Virus record (IMG/VR): IMGVR_UViG_3300042516_000682
Span: 1 to 27,291 of that record
Length of the DNA stretch: 27,291 nt
Origin: a virus
Direction: 5' to 3' (one strand)
Shown here: piece by piece, positions 10,245 through 21,342 of the stretch
Numbering within the stretch: the first letter of the stretch is position 1
Layout: the number at the start of each line of letters is the position of its first letter
Made by a program: the position numbers and the translations under genes
The notes under the pieces: model-generated
Seen by the model: only the letters and a program-made list of their open reading frames with translations
Databases searched by the model: none
What the model was told of the DNA's origin: nothing

Positions 10245-10264
10245 TCAGCACCTAAGTTGTATAG

Positions 10265-10290
10265 ACCCCGCCCAAAAAGCGGGGTTTTTT
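10265..10290 (+). terminator. Intrinsic terminator after the capsid gene
   Basis: ACCCCGC (10265-10271) pairs with GCGGGGT (10279-10285) around a 7-base loop, followed by a run of six T (10285-10290). It is the strongest rightward terminator in the window and divides the head operon from the following genes. Confidence 0.88.
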
Positions 10291-11165: not shown

Positions 11166-11651
11166 ATGGCAATGCAATATGACGTAAAGTCAGCACACAT
11201 AAGTGCATCTGGTGTGGCGGTTGGGTACAGAACTCGCTTAAAAGGCGTTGTTATGTCTCCATCTGAGTCGCAGACATTAAATGTGGCGTTTTGTGACAAC
11301 ATAAGCGTTTCTGGTACTTATGATGTTCCTGGAAGTACGGTATGTACTGTAACCATTGCTAATCATGGACTATCTAATGGAGATCGAGTTTATTTAAACT
11401 TTACTTCTGGATCGTCTTCGGATAACACTTTTACAGTTTCAAACGTTGCAACCAGTACTTTTACAGTAGCGGTAGCTTCAGCGACAACAAGCGGTAATGT
11501 AACGATGTATGCTGCTGTTTTAATTGAGCTTGATTGTTCTTCTGCTACGGCTTTTTATACAATGATTCCAGGTGAGGGCATTCTTGCTGAGCAAGGTATT
11601 TATGTTGGTCTTCCTAGCGCAACTGTAACCACTACATTGTTTTACGGCTAA
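11166..11651 (+). CDS. Beta-rich structural protein with HGLSNGDRV module (161 aa), paralogue 1
   Basis: Start ATG at 11166 with AGAGGA upstream. Three parts are visible: an outer N-terminal strand set MQYDVKSAHISASG with RLKG (residues 3-26), a central insertion of about 65 residues containing TIANHGLSNGDRVYL (63-77), then SNVATSTFTV (92-101), and a C-terminal part IPGEGI...GIYVGL ending in FYG. The central part looks like the small beta module that databases often call the E1 FCCH-like domain in phage proteins. The flanking parts are shared with the next gene, so the two are tandem paralogues. A virion surface role fits the position. Cysteines at about 43, 60 and 124 could form bonds, though this is not evident. 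Confidence 0.7.
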   Translation: MAMQYDVKSAHISASGVAVGYRTRLKGVVMSPSESQTLNVAFCDNISVSGTYDVPGSTVCTVTIANHGLSNGDRVYLNFTSGSSSDNTFTVSNVATSTFTVAVASATTSGNVTMYAAVLIELDCSSATAFYTMIPGEGILAEQGIYVGLPSATVTTTLFYG

Positions 11652-11653
11652 TC

Positions 11654-12136
11654 ATGCAATATGACGTTAAATCGTATCATGCTTCAGCGTCTGGAAACGC
11701 CACAACTAGTCCTGTGCGTTTAAAAGGCATTACCGTTACTACTGGTACGGTATCAGCAAGGAACATGGCAGTTGCAAATCCCGCTGTTTCTAAGTCTGGT
11801 ACTTGGAGCAGAACGGGAACAGCAGTTACGGTTACGATTAATGACAATGGGTTAGCGAACGGGCAACGGGTATTTTTAGATGTTGCTGCTGGAACGACCA
11901 TGCGAGACGGCGTTTACGAAGTATCTAATGTAACAACAAATACATTTACCGTTGTCTCAGTGACATCAGGAGCGGCGACTGGTACAGTTACAATGTACAC
12001 AGATATTTATTTAGAAGTTGATACGTTTAACACAGTTGGTTTACCCATTAAGATTCCAGGCGAGGGCATTAATTGCCCAAACGGGTTCTTTGTAGGGGTT
12101 GGATCAAGCGTAACTGCAACGGTGATATATGGCTAA
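11654..12136 (+). CDS. Beta-rich structural protein, paralogue 2 (160 aa)
   Basis: Begins two bases after the previous stop and shares the same plan: MQYDVKSYHASASG, RLKGIT, a central module with TINDNGLANGQRVFL (61-75) and SNVTTNTFTV (91-100), then IPGEGI, FVGVGSSVTATVIYG. The module carries NDNGLANG in place of NHGLSNG. Sequence divergence from paralogue 1 is large outside the conserved anchor motifs, so the duplication is old or one copy was imported. Likely a minor virion protein with the same fold. It overlaps the next gene by eight bases, placing both in the same transcript. Confidence 0.7.
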   Translation: MQYDVKSYHASASGNATTSPVRLKGITVTTGTVSARNMAVANPAVSKSGTWSRTGTAVTVTINDNGLANGQRVFLDVAAGTTMRDGVYEVSNVTTNTFTVVSVTSGAATGTVTMYTDIYLEVDTFNTVGLPIKIPGEGINCPNGFFVGVGSSVTATVIYG

Positions 12137-12386
12137 GAAAAAAGGTGTCTCGCTTGCGATTGGTCGTGGTGAAAAGCTGCCTGTATCTAAGGGTGCTGGG
12201 CTTACCGCCAAGGGTCGTGCTAAATATAATGCGGCTACTGGCTCGAATCTAAAGGCTCCACAGCCCGAAGGTGGCGCTCGCAAGCGTTCATTTTGTGCTC
12301 GTATGTCTGGTATGCCTGGCCCAATGAAAGATGAAAATGGAAAGCCTACTCGTAAGGCAGCCAGCTTAAAGAGATGGAAGTGCTAA
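12129..12386 (+). CDS. Small Lys/Arg-rich protein with KSFCAR-like motif (85 aa)
   Basis: An 85-residue very basic protein. It contains GLTAKGRAKYNAATGSNLK (residues 24-42), then ARKRSFCARMSGMPGPMKD and a terminal KAASLKRWKC. The two Cys residues (about 56 and 85) and the rest of the pattern match a conserved little protein I know from marine podovirus structural regions, without known function. The start overlaps the preceding stop by eight bases. Basic composition suggests binding to packaged DNA or RNA, or to an acidic surface of the virion (inference). It opens the cluster of small basic genes up to 14052. Confidence 0.75.
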   Translation: MAKKKGVSLAIGRGEKLPVSKGAGLTAKGRAKYNAATGSNLKAPQPEGGARKRSFCARMSGMPGPMKDENGKPTRKAASLKRWKC

Positions 12387-12650
12387 ATGGATAGTCTTTT
12401 AACCATTGCCATAGCTGCTTGGTCGGGGCTTTTAACTGTATTTTTATCTGTATTAGGGTATATCGTGAACGAAAAGTTTAGCAAGATTAAAGATTTAGAC
12501 GATAAGCTTAATACAACAAGAGTGGAGGTAGCGCGTGAGCACATTACTCGTGAAGAAGTTACAAGAATTACGGATCACATTGATGCAAGGTTTAACCGCC
12601 TTGAAAGCAAAATTGACCAACTTATTCAAAGCAAAATAGCAAATGCCTAG
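12387..12650 (+). CDS. Single-pass membrane protein with coiled-coil tail (87 aa)
   Basis: An 87-residue protein starting immediately after the previous stop. Residues 4-26 are hydrophobic (LLTIAIAAWSGLLTVFLSVL) and form one transmembrane helix; residues 30-85 are charged with heptad character (FNRLESKIDQLIQSK). No signal-peptidase site or lipobox is visible. The gene sits among small structural genes, away from the holin and endolysin, so a lysis role is doubtful. A membrane-anchored virion or ejection component is equally possible. The next start codon overlaps this gene's end by eight bases. Confidence 0.7.
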   Translation: MDSLLTIAIAAWSGLLTVFLSVLGYIVNEKFSKIKDLDDKLNTTRVEVAREHITREEVTRITDHIDARFNRLESKIDQLIQSKIANA

Positions 12651-12924
12651 CGTAAGTAAGAAGCAACACAATTTCATGGCAGCTGTGGCTAACAACCCAA
12701 AGTTTGCCAAAAAAGCAGGTGTGTCTTCCGCAGTAGGGAAGGAATTTTTAACTGCCGATAAAGGCAAAACTTTTAAAGAAGGTGGAACCATGAAAAAGCC
12801 AAATCCATTTATGGAAATGATTGCAAAGAAAAAAGCGGCTGCTGCTAAGAAGCCAGCTAAACCCGCTGCAATGCCTATGAAAAAAGGCGGCGTAGCTAAA
12901 AAGAAAAGCGGAAAGGCTTGCTAA
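12643..12924 (+). CDS. Small Lys/Ala-rich protein with SKKQHNFM motif (93 aa)
   Basis: A 93-residue basic protein. The N-terminal half SVSKKQHNFMAAVANNPKFA (3-22) plus VGKEFLTADKGK forms a conserved-looking motif I recall from phage proteins of unknown function (reminiscent of small S-K-Q-F-M proteins such as DUF3008, uncertain). The C-terminal half is a low-complexity Lys/Ala/Pro tail (AAAAKKPAKPAAMPMKKGG) like histone H1 or bacterial nucleoid tails. It ends in KAC. Expected to bind nucleic acid or an acidic partner. It overlaps the previous gene by eight bases. One of the strongest candidates for a virion DNA-binding peptide. Confidence 0.7.
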   Translation: MPSVSKKQHNFMAAVANNPKFAKKAGVSSAVGKEFLTADKGKTFKEGGTMKKPNPFMEMIAKKKAAAAKKPAKPAAMPMKKGGVAKKKSGKAC

Positions 12925-12926
12925 TT

Positions 12927-13112
12927 ATGAAACATTCAGACATGAGTAAAGACATGCCAATGATGAAAAAAGTCGCTGGTGAGGCTGTTAAAGGCCATGA
13001 GAAGAAGATGCACAAAATGGCTAAGGGTGGTGTAACCCGTGCCGACGGCTGCGTAATCAAAGGCCACACAAAAGGCAAGATGATTAAAATGGCTGGCGGC
13101 GGGAGCTGCTAA
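12927..13112 (+). CDS. RADGC-motif micro-protein (61 aa)
   Basis: The open frame extends back to a TTG at 12918, but the ATG at 12927, two bases after the previous stop, gives the natural start. The 61-residue product is rich in Lys, Met and Gly. It contains RADGCVIKGHTKGKM at residues 38-52, followed by AGGGSC. Nearly the same 15-residue pattern occurs at the end of the next protein. Met-rich segments (MSKDMPMMKKV, KMHKMAKGG) are unusual. Function unknown; tight packing in the operon and the shared motif support that it is translated. Confidence 0.7.
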   Translation: MKHSDMSKDMPMMKKVAGEAVKGHEKKMHKMAKGGVTRADGCVIKGHTKGKMIKMAGGGSC

Positions 13113-13114
13113 TC

Positions 13115-13504
13115 ATGGCTAAATCACCAGACCAAATCGTAGCGGACATTGACCGCAAACAAAACGAAGAAGATCGGGATTTGATTCCTCGTGCTGGTCG
13201 TGCTTTATCGGGTGTTGCTAAAAAAGTTTATGCTGCAGCTACTGGTAAAGGTGCTAAAGATTTTGAACCTAAAGACACAAACTATGGTCCAGGACCTGGC
13301 TTTGAAGATAGGGATGCAGTAAGGTCTCCTGTTGGCGGATATATTGGTTCTGGGGCAGAAATGCGTTCTTTAAATATGGGTAAGAAATCTAAGGCATCAA
13401 AAGCATCTTCAGATTACAAAAAAGGCGGAATGATTAAGTCTTCCGCTTCTAAACGTGCTGATGGCTGCGCTATTAAGGGTAAAACCCGAGGAAGAATGGT
13501 ATGA
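13115..13504 (+). CDS. RADGC-motif protein (129 aa)
   Basis: A 129-residue basic protein starting two bases after the previous stop. The N-terminal part (1-45) is helical and charged, and the middle is Gly/Pro/Asp-rich (TNYGPGPGFEDRDAVRSP). The C terminus KRADGCAIKGKTRGRM (113-128) closely repeats the motif of the upstream 61-residue protein: 11 of 15 positions from RADGC to the final Met are identical. The motif is therefore a portable tail found on two neighbouring gene products. It ends in an ATGA overlap with the next gene. The single Cys in an otherwise Cys-free protein, kept in both copies, suggests a structural or modification role (inference). Confidence 0.7.
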   Translation: MAKSPDQIVADIDRKQNEEDRDLIPRAGRALSGVAKKVYAAATGKGAKDFEPKDTNYGPGPGFEDRDAVRSPVGGYIGSGAEMRSLNMGKKSKASKASSDYKKGGMIKSSASKRADGCAIKGKTRGRMV

Positions 13505-13776
13505 GACCGAGTCGCGGCATGGGGGCGGTAATGCCTAGCAAAATGCCGGGCAAGAAAGTTATTCACCGTAAAGACAAACCGCAAGACGTAGATTTATACG
13601 CCGAAGGTGGTACGGTTAATGCGGCGGGTAACTACACCAAGCCAGAGATGCGCAAACGCATTGTTTCTCAGGTTAAGGCAGCTGCAACTCATGGCACTGG
13701 CGCAGGCCAGTGGTCAGCCCGTAAAGCACAACTCGTTGCTAAGAAGTACAAGGCAGCTGGCGGAGGGTATAAATAA
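13501..13776 (+). CDS. Small basic protein with GQWSARKAQL domain (91 aa)
   Basis: Starts by ATGA overlap (13501-13504) and ends by one-base overlap with the next start codon. Residues 1-30 are a basic leader with PSKMPGKKVI. Residues about 44-90 contain NYTKPEMRKRI, GAGQWSARKAQLVAKKY and AAGGGYK. This second part resembles the short domain catalogued, as far as I recall, as DUF5872, found in phages and in large algal viruses. Its function is unknown; the compact helix-loop-helix composition with many Lys/Arg would fit nucleic-acid binding. The motif is specific enough that the gene is certainly real. Confidence 0.78.
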   Translation: MRPSRGMGAVMPSKMPGKKVIHRKDKPQDVDLYAEGGTVNAAGNYTKPEMRKRIVSQVKAAATHGTGAGQWSARKAQLVAKKYKAAGGGYK

Positions 13777-14048
13777 TGTTTAATTGGCTCTGGAGGTTAC
13801 TCGGTGGCACTAGCGAAATCACAACAAAGCCTGAAGTCGTGGGGCGAGCAGAAGTGGACAACCAAGTCAGGAAAGAAGTCGTCCGAAACCGGCGAGCGGT
13901 ACCTGCCAAAAAAAGCAATAGCCGCGCTAAGCCCGCAGGAGTACGCAGCAACAACACGAGCAAAACGAGCGGGAAAAGCACAGGGAAAGCAGTTCGTCCC
14001 GCAGCCCCCAAAAGTAAAAGCAAAAGTAAAGCCGTTTCGAAAGGTTAA
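13776..14048 (+). CDS. Overlapping small protein with hydrophobic N terminus (90 aa)
   Basis: A 90-residue frame starting with ATG at 13776 directly at the stop of the previous gene, with GGAGGG nine bases upstream. The product starts MFNWLWRLLGG (amphipathic or membrane-active) and continues as a Lys/Arg/Ser/Ala-rich basic tail to its end. Bases 13804-14048 are read a second time in another frame by the next gene, which has its own GGAGG site. This gene has less family support than its partner, but the ribosome site, the coupled start and the full-length opening make expression plausible. An alternative is that it is only a leader frame delivering ribosomes to the GTG at 13804. Confidence 0.45.
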   Translation: MFNWLWRLLGGTSEITTKPEVVGRAEVDNQVRKEVVRNRRAVPAKKSNSRAKPAGVRSNNTSKTSGKSTGKAVRPAAPKSKSKSKAVSKG

Positions 14049-14052
14049 GTAA
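13804..14052 (+). CDS. Small basic phage protein, GTG start (82 aa)
   Basis: Starts at GTG with TGGAGG seven bases upstream. The 82-residue protein begins MALAKSQQSLKSWGEQKWTT and contains SETGERYLPKKAIAALSPQE (residues 27-46), then YAATTRAKRAGKAQGKQF. It matches a recurring small protein of environmental phages that I recognise by these three blocks; its role is unknown. It lies entirely within the 3' part of the frame at 13776-14048 except for the last few codons, and ends three bases before the neck adaptor gene. Being basic and compact, it belongs to the same micro-protein set as its neighbours. Confidence 0.75.
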   Translation: MALAKSQQSLKSWGEQKWTTKSGKKSSETGERYLPKKAIAALSPQEYAATTRAKRAGKAQGKQFVPQPPKVKAKVKPFRKVK

Positions 14053-14055
14053 AAG

Positions 14056-14808
14056 ATGACCGTAGTCGCTAACGCCACATTTAACCTCGATCTCACTGAG
14101 ATCGTTGAAGAAGCTTTTGAGCGCTGTGGCTCAGAGCTGCGTTCGGGCTATGATTTAAAGACTGCGCGTCGCTCCCTCAACCTACTGTTTGCGGATTGGG
14201 CTAACCGTGGTATTAACTTATGGACGGTTGAGCAGGGGCAGATTCCGCTGGTTCAGGGCGTTAATACGTACGACCTGCCGCTAGATACCGTTGACTTACT
14301 TGAGCACGTTATCCGTACAAACCCTGGTGTTCAGAACACGCAGGCGGATTTATCGATTACTAGAATTTCAGTCTCCACATACGCGACAATCCCTAATAAG
14401 TTACAGCAAGCTCGGCCGATCCAAGTGTGGATAAACCGTCAGTCTGGCGCAACATACGCTGGTACAAGCTCTTCTACGCCCCCTGCAGGCGTCGATGCAC
14501 CAAAGATAGTAGTGTGGCCTACCCCTGACCAAGGAGGCGTTGGCGACCCTTATTACACGTTTGTGTACTGGCGTTTGCGCAGAATCCACGACAGCGGCAA
14601 CGGCGTTAATACGATGGACATACCGTTCCGGTTTTTGCCTTGCATGATTGCAGGGCTTGCATATTATTTAGCGATTAAGATTCCGGGCTCGGACGGCCGT
14701 CTGGGAGTTTTAAAAGCACAGTACGACGAAGCATGGCAGCTAGCGGCAGATGAGGACCGAGAAAAAGCGGCGATCCGCTTTGTGCCACGTCGTATGTATA
14801 TTACGTAG
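14056..14808 (+). CDS. Head-tail adaptor, P22 gp4-like
   Basis: A 250-residue protein. The first 90 residues read like the P22 gp4 tail-accessory family: DLTEIVEEAFERCGSEL (12-28), a helix SLNLLFADWANRGINLW (40-56), QGVNTYDLPLDTVDLLEHVI (67-86). A variable loop region with Thr/Ser/Pro follows, and a C-terminal helical end is rich in Glu/Arg (YDEAWQLAADEDREKAAIRF). In P22, twelve gp4 copies bind beneath the portal and extend the channel. The position, immediately before other neck genes, supports the same role. AAAAG precedes the ATG (weak site). Normal length for the family or slightly longer. Confidence 0.8.
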   Translation: MTVVANATFNLDLTEIVEEAFERCGSELRSGYDLKTARRSLNLLFADWANRGINLWTVEQGQIPLVQGVNTYDLPLDTVDLLEHVIRTNPGVQNTQADLSITRISVSTYATIPNKLQQARPIQVWINRQSGATYAGTSSSTPPAGVDAPKIVVWPTPDQGGVGDPYYTFVYWRLRRIHDSGNGVNTMDIPFRFLPCMIAGLAYYLAIKIPGSDGRLGVLKAQYDEAWQLAADEDREKAAIRFVPRRMYIT

Positions 14809-14817
14809 GGGTAGGTA

Positions 14818-15246
14818 GTGCCAAATAGATTTGCATCCGGCAAAATAGCAATTTCGCAGTGCGACAGATGCGGGCAGCGATATAAACTTAAAGAACTGCG
14901 GATTGAGATTGTTAAGACTAAACCTTACCAGCTATATGTTTGTAAGGCGTGTTGGGATCCAGATCAGCCGCAGTTGCAGTTGGGTATGTATCCAGTAGAC
15001 GATCCGCAGGCATTGCGCAATCCACGACCGGATAACACGTATTATCAGGCTGGTTTAAACGGCTTGCAGGTAGACCCTAATGGGGGAAGTACAGAAGACG
15101 GTTTTGGAGGCCCAACAATGGGTAGTAGGGTGTTTCAGTGGGGGTGGAATCCAGTCGGAGGCAGTAGGGGGCCAGATGCAGGATTAACACCAAATGACTT
15201 GGTACAACAAGTAATTGTTGGTACAGTAACGGTAACGACAACATAG
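14818..15246 (+). CDS. Zinc-ribbon neck-region protein (142 aa)
   Basis: Starts at GTG (14818), nine bases after the previous stop, with a GGGGTAGG-type site. Cys15, Cys18, Cys42 and Cys45 in the pattern CDRCG...CKACW form a complete C2-C2 zinc ribbon. Next comes DPDQPQLQLGMYPVDDPQAL and a Gly/Asn/Pro-rich disordered tail containing FQWGWNPVGG. I recall similar zinc-ribbon proteins next to gp4-like adaptors in aquatic podoviruses. In the virion it may stabilise the neck, or it may act as an assembly factor. No catalytic residues are seen. Confidence 0.75.
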   Translation: MPNRFASGKIAISQCDRCGQRYKLKELRIEIVKTKPYQLYVCKACWDPDQPQLQLGMYPVDDPQALRNPRPDNTYYQAGLNGLQVDPNGGSTEDGFGGPTMGSRVFQWGWNPVGGSRGPDAGLTPNDLVQQVIVGTVTVTTT

Positions 15247-15255
15247 GAGCAGAAC

Positions 15256-15471
15256 ATGTTTAAATCAGGCGCAGACGGTATTACTAAACAAGGTAAAACC
15301 AAAGGCAAGAATCTCGGCGATTCAGGCCCATCAGTAGGCATTCAGAAGGGTGCTGGCGGCAAGTCAAGCGGCGGCGGTAAAACCAACGAGCAAATGCTTA
15401 AGCTAGGTCGTGGTATGGCTAAAGTAGCTAATCAAGGCGCACTACGTAAAAGCGCAGGAAGAGGTCGTTAA
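15256..15471 (+). CDS. Gly/Lys-rich micro-protein, ADG-GKTKG motif (71 aa)
   Basis: A 71-residue protein with GGAGC before the ATG. The opening GADGITKQGKTKGKNLGDSG (5-24) aligns with the RADGC motif of the proteins at 12927 and 13115 (A-D-G, then G-x-T-x-G at the same spacing), though Cys is replaced by Ile. The middle is poly-Gly/Ser/Lys, the end KVANQGALRKSAGRGR is basic. No known function. I recall similar proteins from phage neck regions. Low-complexity sequence makes it likely disordered until bound. Confidence 0.68.
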   Translation: MFKSGADGITKQGKTKGKNLGDSGPSVGIQKGAGGKSSGGGKTNEQMLKLGRGMAKVANQGALRKSAGRGR

Positions 15472-15473
15472 TC

Positions 15474-15737
15474 ATGCCTAAATACTCAATGAAACGTGAC
15501 GGTAAAGAAGTTGGTCCTGCCTCAGTTTATGCAGAGCCACACACCATGTCGGGTAAAAAAGTAACGGTTGCTGGCGCCATTAAAGATGAGTCTGGCGCTA
15601 AAGTTATGGATGAGCTTGATATTTCTGTTGGCAAAATCAGCAAAAATTTAGGTAAACCAACCAAAACTTCAGGCATTAAGATTCGCGGTACTGGTGCAGC
15701 TACTAAGGGCGTTATGGCCCGTGGGCCGATGGCATAA
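15474..15737 (+). CDS. Small basic protein ending GTGAATKGVMARGPMA (87 aa)
   Basis: An 87-residue protein starting two bases after the previous stop and overlapping the next start by one base. The front half is an ordered-looking beta stretch (KKVTVAGAIKDESGAKVMDE), the rear half is disordered and basic, with the C-terminal block GIKIRGTGAATKGVMARG. I recall the same block at the C terminus of small proteins in related phages, sometimes fused to other front parts. That suggests a conserved docking tail. Function unknown. It is the last of the basic micro-proteins before the second neck protein. Confidence 0.68.
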   Translation: MPKYSMKRDGKEVGPASVYAEPHTMSGKKVTVAGAIKDESGAKVMDELDISVGKISKNLGKPTKTSGIKIRGTGAATKGVMARGPMA

Positions 15738-16384
15738 TGAATTACGCCGATTTAACGCAAGCGATTCTTGATTATACCGAGTCTTACGAACAGACTTTTA
15801 TAGACAATGTTCCGCTTTTTGTACAGCAATGTGAGGAGCGGGTTTATAACGCCGTTCAGATACCTGCTATTCGTAAGAATCAGGTAGGTAACTTTACACA
15901 GAGCGACAAGTACCTTGCGTTACCTTCAGACTACTTAGCGTCCTTTTCGATGGCGGTTATTCTTGCTGATGGTAGCCAAGAGTTTTTAATCGACAAGGAT
16001 GTTAACTTTATTCGTCAGGCGTACCCGAACCCTACAGATGAAGGCATTCCGCGTTACTACGCTCAGTTTGAGCCGTATACATACATTATTGGGCCAACCC
16101 CAGATGCAAACTACAACGTAGAGCTGCATTATTACTATTACCCAGAATCAATTGTTACCGCTGGCACTTCATGGTTGGGCGATAATTTTGAAACTGTTTT
16201 ACTGTATGGCTCGCTGCGTGAGGCTGTAATCTTCCAAAAGGGAGAGCAGGACATGGTTACGTATTACGAGCAGAAGTATCAAGAATCCTTAGCGTTACTC
16301 AGAGAATTGGGTGACGGTAAAGATAGACGTAGCGCATACCGTGATGGTCAATTAAAATTACCCGTACCAGGGCCAGTTAGATAA
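15737..16384 (+). CDS. Second neck/adaptor protein, SU10-like
   Basis: A 215-residue protein. It starts with a helical hairpin (YADLTQAILDYTESYEQTFI, residues 3-22) followed by FVQQCEERVYNAVQIPAIRK. The middle has the segments LALPSDYLASFSMAVIL, FIRQAYPNPTDEGIPRYYAQ and IGPTPDANYNVELHYYYYPE; the end is helical. These segments are typical of phage adaptor proteins such as those of phage SU10 and other podoviruses, which contact the portal/gp4 ring and the nozzle. I am confident about the family type but less about the exact position in the neck. Length is usual for the family. Confidence 0.75.
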   Translation: MNYADLTQAILDYTESYEQTFIDNVPLFVQQCEERVYNAVQIPAIRKNQVGNFTQSDKYLALPSDYLASFSMAVILADGSQEFLIDKDVNFIRQAYPNPTDEGIPRYYAQFEPYTYIIGPTPDANYNVELHYYYYPESIVTAGTSWLGDNFETVLLYGSLREAVIFQKGEQDMVTYYEQKYQESLALLRELGDGKDRRSAYRDGQLKLPVPGPVR

Positions 16385-20355: not shown

Positions 20356-21342
20356 ATGGCCTTTGGTTTTTTTCCCTACGCTGGAGCGCCCTTTGCGGAT
20401 AGTGGAGAGACCGTTGTTAATGTTTCTGTACAGCTAACAGGTGTCGTTGCTGTTGGACAAGTCGGTAATGTAGACGCTCAGGCTAATGCAGATGTTCTTG
20501 TTACTGGAGTTAGTGCCATAACAAGGCTTGGTAACGTAGAAGTTACTGGTGAAGCAGTCGTTGGTTTGACTAGCGTAAATGCCGTAGGCAGGGTTGGTGA
20601 TGTTGCGTTCTCTGGTGGTGTGACGGTTGATCTAACTAGCGTAAATGCAGTAGGCGTAATTGGAGACGTTGAATTCTCTGGCGGTGTAACTGTAGACCTA
20701 ACTGGCGTTTACGCAGTGGGTCGTCTTGGTAATGTTACAACCCAAACAGAAAACTTTATAAATGTAACTGGCGTAAATGCCGTAGGTGTAGTCGGTAATG
20801 TTGAAGTTCAATCTGGAGCAATAGTTGACCTTACAGGCGTAACGGCGGTTGGGCAAATAGGAAATGTTGCTGTTCAGGCAGGCGCTGTAATTGATATTGT
20901 TGGAATTGCTACTGTAGGTAGGGTTGGCACTGTAACCACCCAAACAGAAAACTTTATTGATGTAACGGGCGTTGCCACAATAGGCCAAATAGGGGACGTA
21001 GACGTTAAAGCAGATGCGGTTGTATTTGTAACAGGCACCCAGGCGATAGGCAGAATAGGCGATGTAACCGTATTTGGCACTGCAACAGTTTTAGTGACAG
21101 GAGTCAAAGCAGTTGTTAAACTAAAGGTTGTAAACGTTTGGGGTAATATTGATACGGATCAGACCCCAAATTGGCAAGATATTAATCCAATGCAGGTATC
21201 GGCATGGAGCGAGATAAACCCAGTTCAAGTAGCAAATTGGCAGGAAATTAACCCAGGAGCTGGTTCTGGATGGACTGAAATAGACCCTAGCCAAACGCCT
21301 AATTGGACGCCTGTTTTAGTGCCTTCGGGCTTTGATAATTAA
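20356..21342 (+). CDS. Tandem-repeat tail protein (328 aa)
   Basis: Starts three bases after the previous stop. After a 24-residue N-terminal leader, about eleven consecutive copies of a 22-residue unit follow (residues 25-266), with the frame V-x-L-T-G-V-x-A-V-G-x-x-G-x-V. Examples are VDLTGVYAVGRLGNV and INVTGVNAVGVVGNV. The last copy is degenerate. Residues 270-322 hold a second repeat of 10-12 residues with W-x-(D/E)-I-(N/D)-P: NWQDINPMQV, AWSEINPVQV, NWQEINPG, GWTEIDPSQT. The regular 22-residue beta period suggests a beta-helix or a stacked fibre shaft. Repeats of this kind are known in aquatic phage fibres. Its role is probably shaft or connection between the adhesins. No trimerisation tip is visible. 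Confidence 0.75.
   Translation: MAFGFFPYAGAPFADSGETVVNVSVQLTGVVAVGQVGNVDAQANADVLVTGVSAITRLGNVEVTGEAVVGLTSVNAVGRVGDVAFSGGVTVDLTSVNAVGVIGDVEFSGGVTVDLTGVYAVGRLGNVTTQTENFINVTGVNAVGVVGNVEVQSGAIVDLTGVTAVGQIGNVAVQAGAVIDIVGIATVGRVGTVTTQTENFIDVTGVATIGQIGDVDVKADAVVFVTGTQAIGRIGDVTVFGTATVLVTGVKAVVKLKVVNVWGNIDTDQTPNWQDINPMQVSAWSEINPVQVANWQEINPGAGSGWTEIDPSQTPNWTPVLVPSGFDN
20428..21153 (+). repeat. Eleven tandem 66-bp repeats inside the fibre gene
   Basis: Each unit encodes 22 residues with consensus V-D-L-T-G-V-x-A-V-G-x-x-G-x-V-x-x-x-x-x-x-x. Copies differ in DNA (synonymous as well as coding), apart from segments such as TCTCTGGTGGTGTGACGGTTG that recur closely in neighbours. Two non-adjacent copies end in the same TTQTENF sequence, indicating block copying by unequal recombination. 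Confidence 0.8.

Follow-up and report, generated by a model that had tools for sequence, protein, structure and literature searches.

What are the very small basic proteins for that are encoded between the capsid gene and the connector genes of a podovirus-type phage? The stretch that raises this question (hereafter the window) comprises 27,291 bases of the IMG/VR virus record IMGVR_UViG_3300042516_000682 and represents the structural half of such a phage. Its small-gene cluster, p01 to p10 (Table 1), had been described in an earlier note on this DNA as nine small basic proteins resembling nucleoid or histone-tail sequences. Here, we find that the variable proteins of this cluster share a short basic peptide, the RADG tag, with otherwise unrelated small proteins of related phages. 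Our favoured reading, drawn by analogy, is that the cluster encodes cargo comparable to the internal proteins of phage T4 and equipped with a clade-specific docking tag, to which we assign a probability of roughly 0.36.

The variable small proteins have almost nothing in common beyond the tag peptide. Its consensus is KKGG..SASKRADG[CI]A.[KR]GKT[KR]G[KR]MV with the core [RS]ADG[CI]A.[KR]GKT[KR]G[KR]MV, in which the search pattern preset D, G, G and T. In the window, copies are found in p04, in p05 and, at the N-terminus, in p09. A motif search detected the tag in 216 open reading frames (ORFs) from 105 of 168 loci, with up to five copies per locus, throughout on the structural strand and at a median distance of 2 residues before the stop, and the same search gave 0 matches in composition-shuffled proteins. 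At the DNA level, a pattern for the tag applied to 20 records matched 26 times, in 14 IMG/VR records and in Pag-Yong1, with 0 matches for the reversed pattern used as control. Comparison by BLAST of the 173 C-terminally tagged proteins without their tags gives about 59 groups that share no detectable similarity; this number is an upper estimate because some starts are miscalled and the bodies are of low complexity. The bodies are unrelated in 47 of the 49 genomes that encode more than one tagged protein. The tag is not confined to such variable proteins, as it is appended to the DUF6321 protein of one relative (locus L054) and carried by the tail of p03 in many others.

Codon usage shows at which level the tag is maintained. 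The aspartate position uses its two codons at a ratio of 109:107, glycine and threonine use all four of theirs, and third-position agreement between copies amounts to 0.42 within genomes and 0.43 between genomes. Because synonymous codons vary, and do so within genomes as much as between them, selection acts on the tag peptide and the copies are old rather than recent duplicates; the same values rule out that the tag stems from a repeat at the DNA level or from gene conversion of recent date. Old tags and low-complexity bodies could also be expected from a single old gene family whose N-terminal parts have diverged past recognition, the C-terminal peptide being its only functional domain without any role in cargo recruitment. 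Such a family would however require fusion or transfer to account for tags that end DUF6321 and phrog_16759 proteins and start p09, and we consider this origin very improbable.

The net charge of the tagged proteins is +21 per 100 residues in the C-terminal tail and +5.6 in the bodies. RG/K-rich tags of this kind might be RNA- or DNA-binding tails instead of docking signals, on peptides that bind nucleic acids in the infected cell and serve the takeover of genome or ribosome. The basic tags and the overall net charge of the eight small basic proteins (+8.5 to +21 per 100 residues) would suit such a role, as would the topoisomerase genes that adjoin the p03 module in RaK2 and PHA46. Against this, the tag is constrained at particular positions far beyond charge and is limited to the structural block of one lineage, which leaves nucleic-acid takeover an unlikely explanation.

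This limitation is seen in several datasets. Where both anchors are visible, p01 and the second connector enclose the tagged ORFs, apart from 5 of the 216, which sit just upstream of p01. Scanning IMG/VR with the tag pattern alone yielded at least 117 new loci; among the matches listed, 113 carry core genes of the lineage, another three are fragments bearing p01 or p03, and the remaining one reflects a terminase P-loop matched by chance. The median distance of a tagged ORF to the closest gene of the cluster is 263 bases. Among the pattern matches in bacterial genomes, those on the phage-like contigs L311, L314 and L322 are genuine and the rest look like chance, except L326. On this contig of a Patulibacter metagenome-assembled genome, an acyltransferase-like ORF (162-2003) near the contig end carries the RADG tag as a fusion, which is probably a chimeric assembly.

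Sister phages of the HTVC023P type carry another C-terminal tag, RGxGAAxRGxxFxGV[FK]. It is represented in the window by the C-terminus of p10 (RGTGAATKGVMARGPMA) and in HTVC023P by two unrelated proteins ending in RGVGAAIRGHKFIGVK and RGGGAAVRGMGFKGVF. A DNA pattern for RGxGAA, which set no condition on a nearby stop, retrieved 120 contigs in which 127 of 127 copies lie at most 5 residues from the stop; the bodies that carry them are unrelated and number about 26. HTVC023P-type core genes are present in 116 of these contigs and the RADG tag in 0 of the 120. Among the isolates, a single RADG tag occurs in Pag-Yong1 and the RGxGAA tag in HTVC023P, and DSL-LC04 has neither at a C-terminus. The two tag types part broadly when mapped on a tree of 72 capsid-protein rows, with 10 label changes compared to 30 in shuffles. 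The RADG rows lie in one well-supported set (100/99), to which three RGxGAA contigs and four contigs scored as untagged also belong; one of these four has a tag that narrowly escaped the pattern.

The internal proteins of T4 (IPI-III), likewise unrelated small phage proteins sharing one short conserved peptide, are very varied and have a capsid targeting sequence as their only common element (PMC3012670). The proteins described here, whose encapsidation is a proposal, differ in that their genes cluster beside the capsid and connector genes. Moreover, the T4 targeting peptide is N-terminal, whereas the RADG tag is usually C-terminal, being N-terminal only in p09-type copies, and basic. Encapsulin cargo is likewise marked by a short conserved peptide, usually C-terminal, on unrelated proteins, hereby within an HK97-fold shell (PMC10960027). 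Our phages, too, have a short constant peptide at the C-terminus of such proteins, its targeting role being the analogy; here, the shell would be the phage capsid and the cargo small proteins, none of which matches an enzyme family.

According to the favoured reading, the cluster would consist of two layers. The first would be formed by the conserved small basic modules DUF6321, phrog_16759, phrog_17747 and phrog_14910, which are probably nucleic-acid binding, and the second by fast-evolving small proteins, apparently mostly disordered, that share only the short, usually C-terminal peptide. This peptide would act as a docking signal by which the small proteins are brought to a component of the particle, or of its assembly, that is specific to the lineage. 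The portal or the inner surface of the HK97-type capsid is the most likely candidate, and several unrelated cargo peptides would in this way be incorporated into the particle during assembly. We read the tag as a recruitment signal because many unrelated bodies bear one short constant peptide and are encoded beside the capsid gene, and direct it to capsid or portal by analogy with the T4 internal proteins. The sequences show the genes with their order, and the tag with its restriction to cluster and lineage, its conservation as protein and its rough agreement with the capsid tree; docking, its partner, virion location, DNA binding, packaging and ejection are inferred. A broader claim would be that a family of aquatic podoviruses uses clade-specific C-terminal peptides (RADG..KGKTKG in one capsid clade and, in the sister group, RGxGAAxRGxxFxGV) as a capsid- or portal-loading address by which an open-ended range of unrelated small proteins is packed into the virion and brought to the host, which we put forward as tentative and rather doubtful. 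If true, the delivered proteins could be read from the last 20 residues in any such genome, hundreds of 'hypothetical' small proteins of aquatic phages would become a testable candidate set of delivered proteins, and foreign cargo could be brought into a phage capsid by means of such a peptide.

Several points weigh against the cargo reading. The N-terminal copy in p09 shows that the position of the tag is not absolute, and the body-group counts, obtained by BLAST of low-complexity sequence, err on the high side. The RADG capsid clade includes three contigs (L428, L488 and L533) that bear the RGxGAA tag and, judged from their sequences, would be natural tag switches. The congruence with the capsid tree is equally expected from plain vertical descent without docking, and the joint inheritance of capsid, portal, GroES and scaffold prevents it from singling out a partner. 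Outside the lineage, p06 and p08 are found near tail, lysis or terminase genes (lysis and terminase in HMO-2011-type phages) and not near the capsid gene. Finally, in cyanophage S-SM1, for which a virion proteome of 41 proteins was measured (PMC3037559), the DUF6321 protein SSM1_115 is annotated as 'hypothetical' and a nearby gene as 'virion structural protein'. This annotation speaks mildly against packaging of DUF6321 proteins and has no bearing on the tagged ones.

A DUF6321 protein without a virion label would also fit head/neck assembly or packaging factors that are absent from the finished virion and whose tag docks to the phage GroES, the scaffold or the connectors. The location of the genes between capsid and connectors agrees with this, and the lineage regularly has genes for GroES and scaffold nearby. 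One tag on many bodies per genome suits cargo better than a dedicated factor, and we rate assembly factors as an unlikely explanation.

Concerning the genes themselves, all nine ORFs of the earlier note exist at the coordinates given there but correspond to eight genes, and a neutral membrane/coil gene among them, p02, had been overlooked. ORF 13776 (p07) reads the gene at 13804 (p08) in the wrong frame, since in 25 relatives its frame contains 61 in-frame stops and shows a ratio of nonsynonymous to synonymous substitution rates (dN/dS) of 2.3, compared to 0 stops and 0.11 for the 13804 frame, which in addition matches phrog_14910 at 7e-32. The reported basic character and tight arrangement are correct: the isoelectric points (pI) of the eight proteins range from 9.9 to 11.2, those of all other listed window genes from 4.1 to 9.5. 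Median dN/dS values against relatives lie between 0.04 and 0.23 for the seven testable small genes (0.05 for p01, 0.04 for p06); p05 has no usable DNA match but homologues in other loci.

Conservation of the set and its order across environmental podovirus contigs, named as a check in the earlier note, is likewise observed, so that the scattering in relatives which would have spoken against that note is not seen. Two IMG/VR scans gave 56 related contigs spanning capsid to second connector, and in 56 of 56 the genes present keep the order p01-p03-p06-p08-adaptor-Zn protein-p10-second connector on a single strand, a result that holds within the lineage because the contigs were picked as relatives. 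Presence varies from p01 (56 contigs), p06 (53), a tagged protein (52) and p10 (52) to p03 (45), p08 (42), p09 (42) and p02 (17).

The proposed likeness to nucleoid proteins or histone tails finds little support. No cluster protein matches a nucleoid protein family in Pfam or NCBIfam, and the AlphaFold2 model of p08 is compact and fairly confident, with a predicted local distance difference test score (pLDDT) of 84 and a predicted template modelling score of 0.64. As p08 is predicted to be folded, the term 'histone tail' does not fit it; the set would combine a folded basic domain (p08) with apparently disordered tagged proteins, and the term describes neither well. Nucleoid- or histone-like proteins carried in the virion, which would condense the DNA or be ejected with it and would lack a targeting tag, could draw on the high pI values and the conserved set; given the missing family matches, the predicted fold of p08 and tagged bodies that are just mildly basic, with charge concentrated in the tails, we regard such a set as improbable. 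Clear structural matches of the p08 model are found only among unnamed predicted viral proteins, with no convincing fold match in the PDB. The same holds in the PDB for the p01 model, which is weak (pLDDT 63) and consists of a low-confidence N-terminus and three short helices. By sequence, p01, p06 and p08 have no relatives of solved structure; these missing matches prove neither a new nor an unrelated fold.

Whether the module is little described, as had been stated, depends on the level considered. Half of the cluster, i.e. four of the eight proteins, consists of modules catalogued in Pfam or PHROGs and uncharacterised (DUF6321, phrog_16759, phrog_17747 and phrog_14910), p01 being a clear DUF6321 member (PF19846, 7.8e-23, 81.3 bits compared to a gathering score of 28.5). 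A literature search by peptide fragments returned nothing relevant, and no description of the set or the shared tag was found; as far as searched, the portable clade-specific C-terminal tag is thus undescribed.

Outside the lineage, the small modules occur apart from one another in other phage groups. DUF6321 is located between capsid and tail-tube genes in P-SCSP1u, between scaffold-type and capsid genes in S-TIP37, directly 3' of the capsid gene in HTVC104P and, in Syn9, at the C-terminus of the multi-module protein gp114 beside the small terminase gene. The capsid gene is thus close by in T7-like cyanophages and HTVC104P, and in T4-like cyanophages DUF6321 forms the C-terminal portion of a larger protein. 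The passages found of the P-SCSP1u cryo-electron microscopy paper do not mention the DUF6321 gene product. The small virion proteins of P-SS2 are mostly acidic and show no match to the cluster families. Syn9 gp114 (L185 4877-6208) is a chain of short modules, each a separate small protein in podoviruses, including a stretch like the DUF5872-like gp70 of CRP-902 in addition to DUF6321. The p03 module corresponds to phiKZ 165.1 and to the N-terminus of an 878-residue PHA46 protein, and occurs also in RaK2 ORF156. The modules of p06 and p08 lie close to each other in HTVC104P and HMO-2011, as they do in most other contigs bearing p08.

By capsid identity, the nearest isolates are Planktothrix phage Pag-Yong1 and two further records (74%), followed by phage DSL-LC04 (67%), the Pelagibacter phages HTVC023P and HTVC027P (65%) and the Roseobacter phages CRP-901 and CRP-902 (59%). 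Pag-Yong1, HTVC023P and DSL-LC04 show the same capsid-to-adaptor layout as the window with small genes in between. We take the cluster to be a late cassette of head and neck genes from podoviruses of the Pam1/HTVC023P type.

Table 1. Position of the cluster genes, tag copies and surrounding features in the window (single numbers as given for the gene; aa, amino acids).
Feature	Position	Strand	Description
Large terminase	2624		
Portal	4165		
GroES	6824		
Scaffold-like gene	7264		
Capsid	9342		Phage_capsid_4 / Mu gpT-like match
Stem	10263-10287	+	9 pairs and T-rich tail
First tandem paralogue	11166-11651		
Second tandem paralogue	11654-12136		
p01	12129..12386	+	85 aa, DUF6321 (PF19846), pI 10.9, C-terminus WKC
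p02	12387..12650	+	87 aa, N-terminal hydrophobic segment and likely coil, neutral, pI 6.1
p03	12643..12924	+	93 aa, N-terminal phrog_16759 module (MPSVSKKQHNFMAAVANNP...), variable basic tail
p04	12927..13112	+	61 aa, variable body, RADG tag at end
Tag copy in p04	13044..13079	+	DGCVIKGHTKGK
p05	13115..13504	+	129 aa, variable body, C-terminus ...SASKRADGCAIKGKTRGRMV
Tag copy in p05	13460..13495	+	DGCAIKGKTRGR, 2 residues from end
p06	13501..13776	+	91 aa, phrog_17747 module (YTKP..RK...GQWSARKAQ..AKKYKAAGGGY)
p07	13776..14048	+	Frame overlapping p08, unsupported as gene
p08	13804..14052	+	82 aa, GTG start, GGAGG upstream, phrog_14910 module
Connector/adaptor	14056..14808	+	SU10_adaptor PF24175, 1e-7, 33.1 bits (cut-off 27)
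Four-Cys (Zn) protein	14818..15246	+	phrog_28581
p09	15256..15471	+	71 aa, N-terminal tag copy DGITKQGKTKGK at 15274-15309
p10	15474..15737	+	87 aa, constant C-terminus GIKIRGTGAATKGVMARGPMA, second tag type, 15684-15734
Second connector	15737..16384	+	SU10_adaptor PF24175, 7.6e-21, 75.9 bits (cut-off 27)
Repeat-unit protein	20356-21342		Repeated units (VTGVNAVGRVGDV...)
Holin	24398		
Endolysin	24798		

The two connectors are related to each other and bracket the four-Cys protein, p09 and p10. Counterparts of the four-Cys protein in the marine relatives CRP-902 and HTVC023P (L164 14617-15543; L163 20428-20865) keep the motif ARGK..AISDR and have lost the cysteines, so that metal binding is not essential to this family. 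A p02-like membrane/coil protein in CRP-902 (L164 20317-20550) adjoins a lysis peptidase gene, which suggests a lysis or membrane role for p02. The stem listed in Table 1 lies immediately 3' of the capsid gene and is plausibly a terminator that would part the latter from the structural genes downstream. The tandem paralogues upstream of p01 have near-identical starts (MQYDVKS...) and are probably two decoration proteins, and the repeat-unit protein is likely a tail or fibre part.

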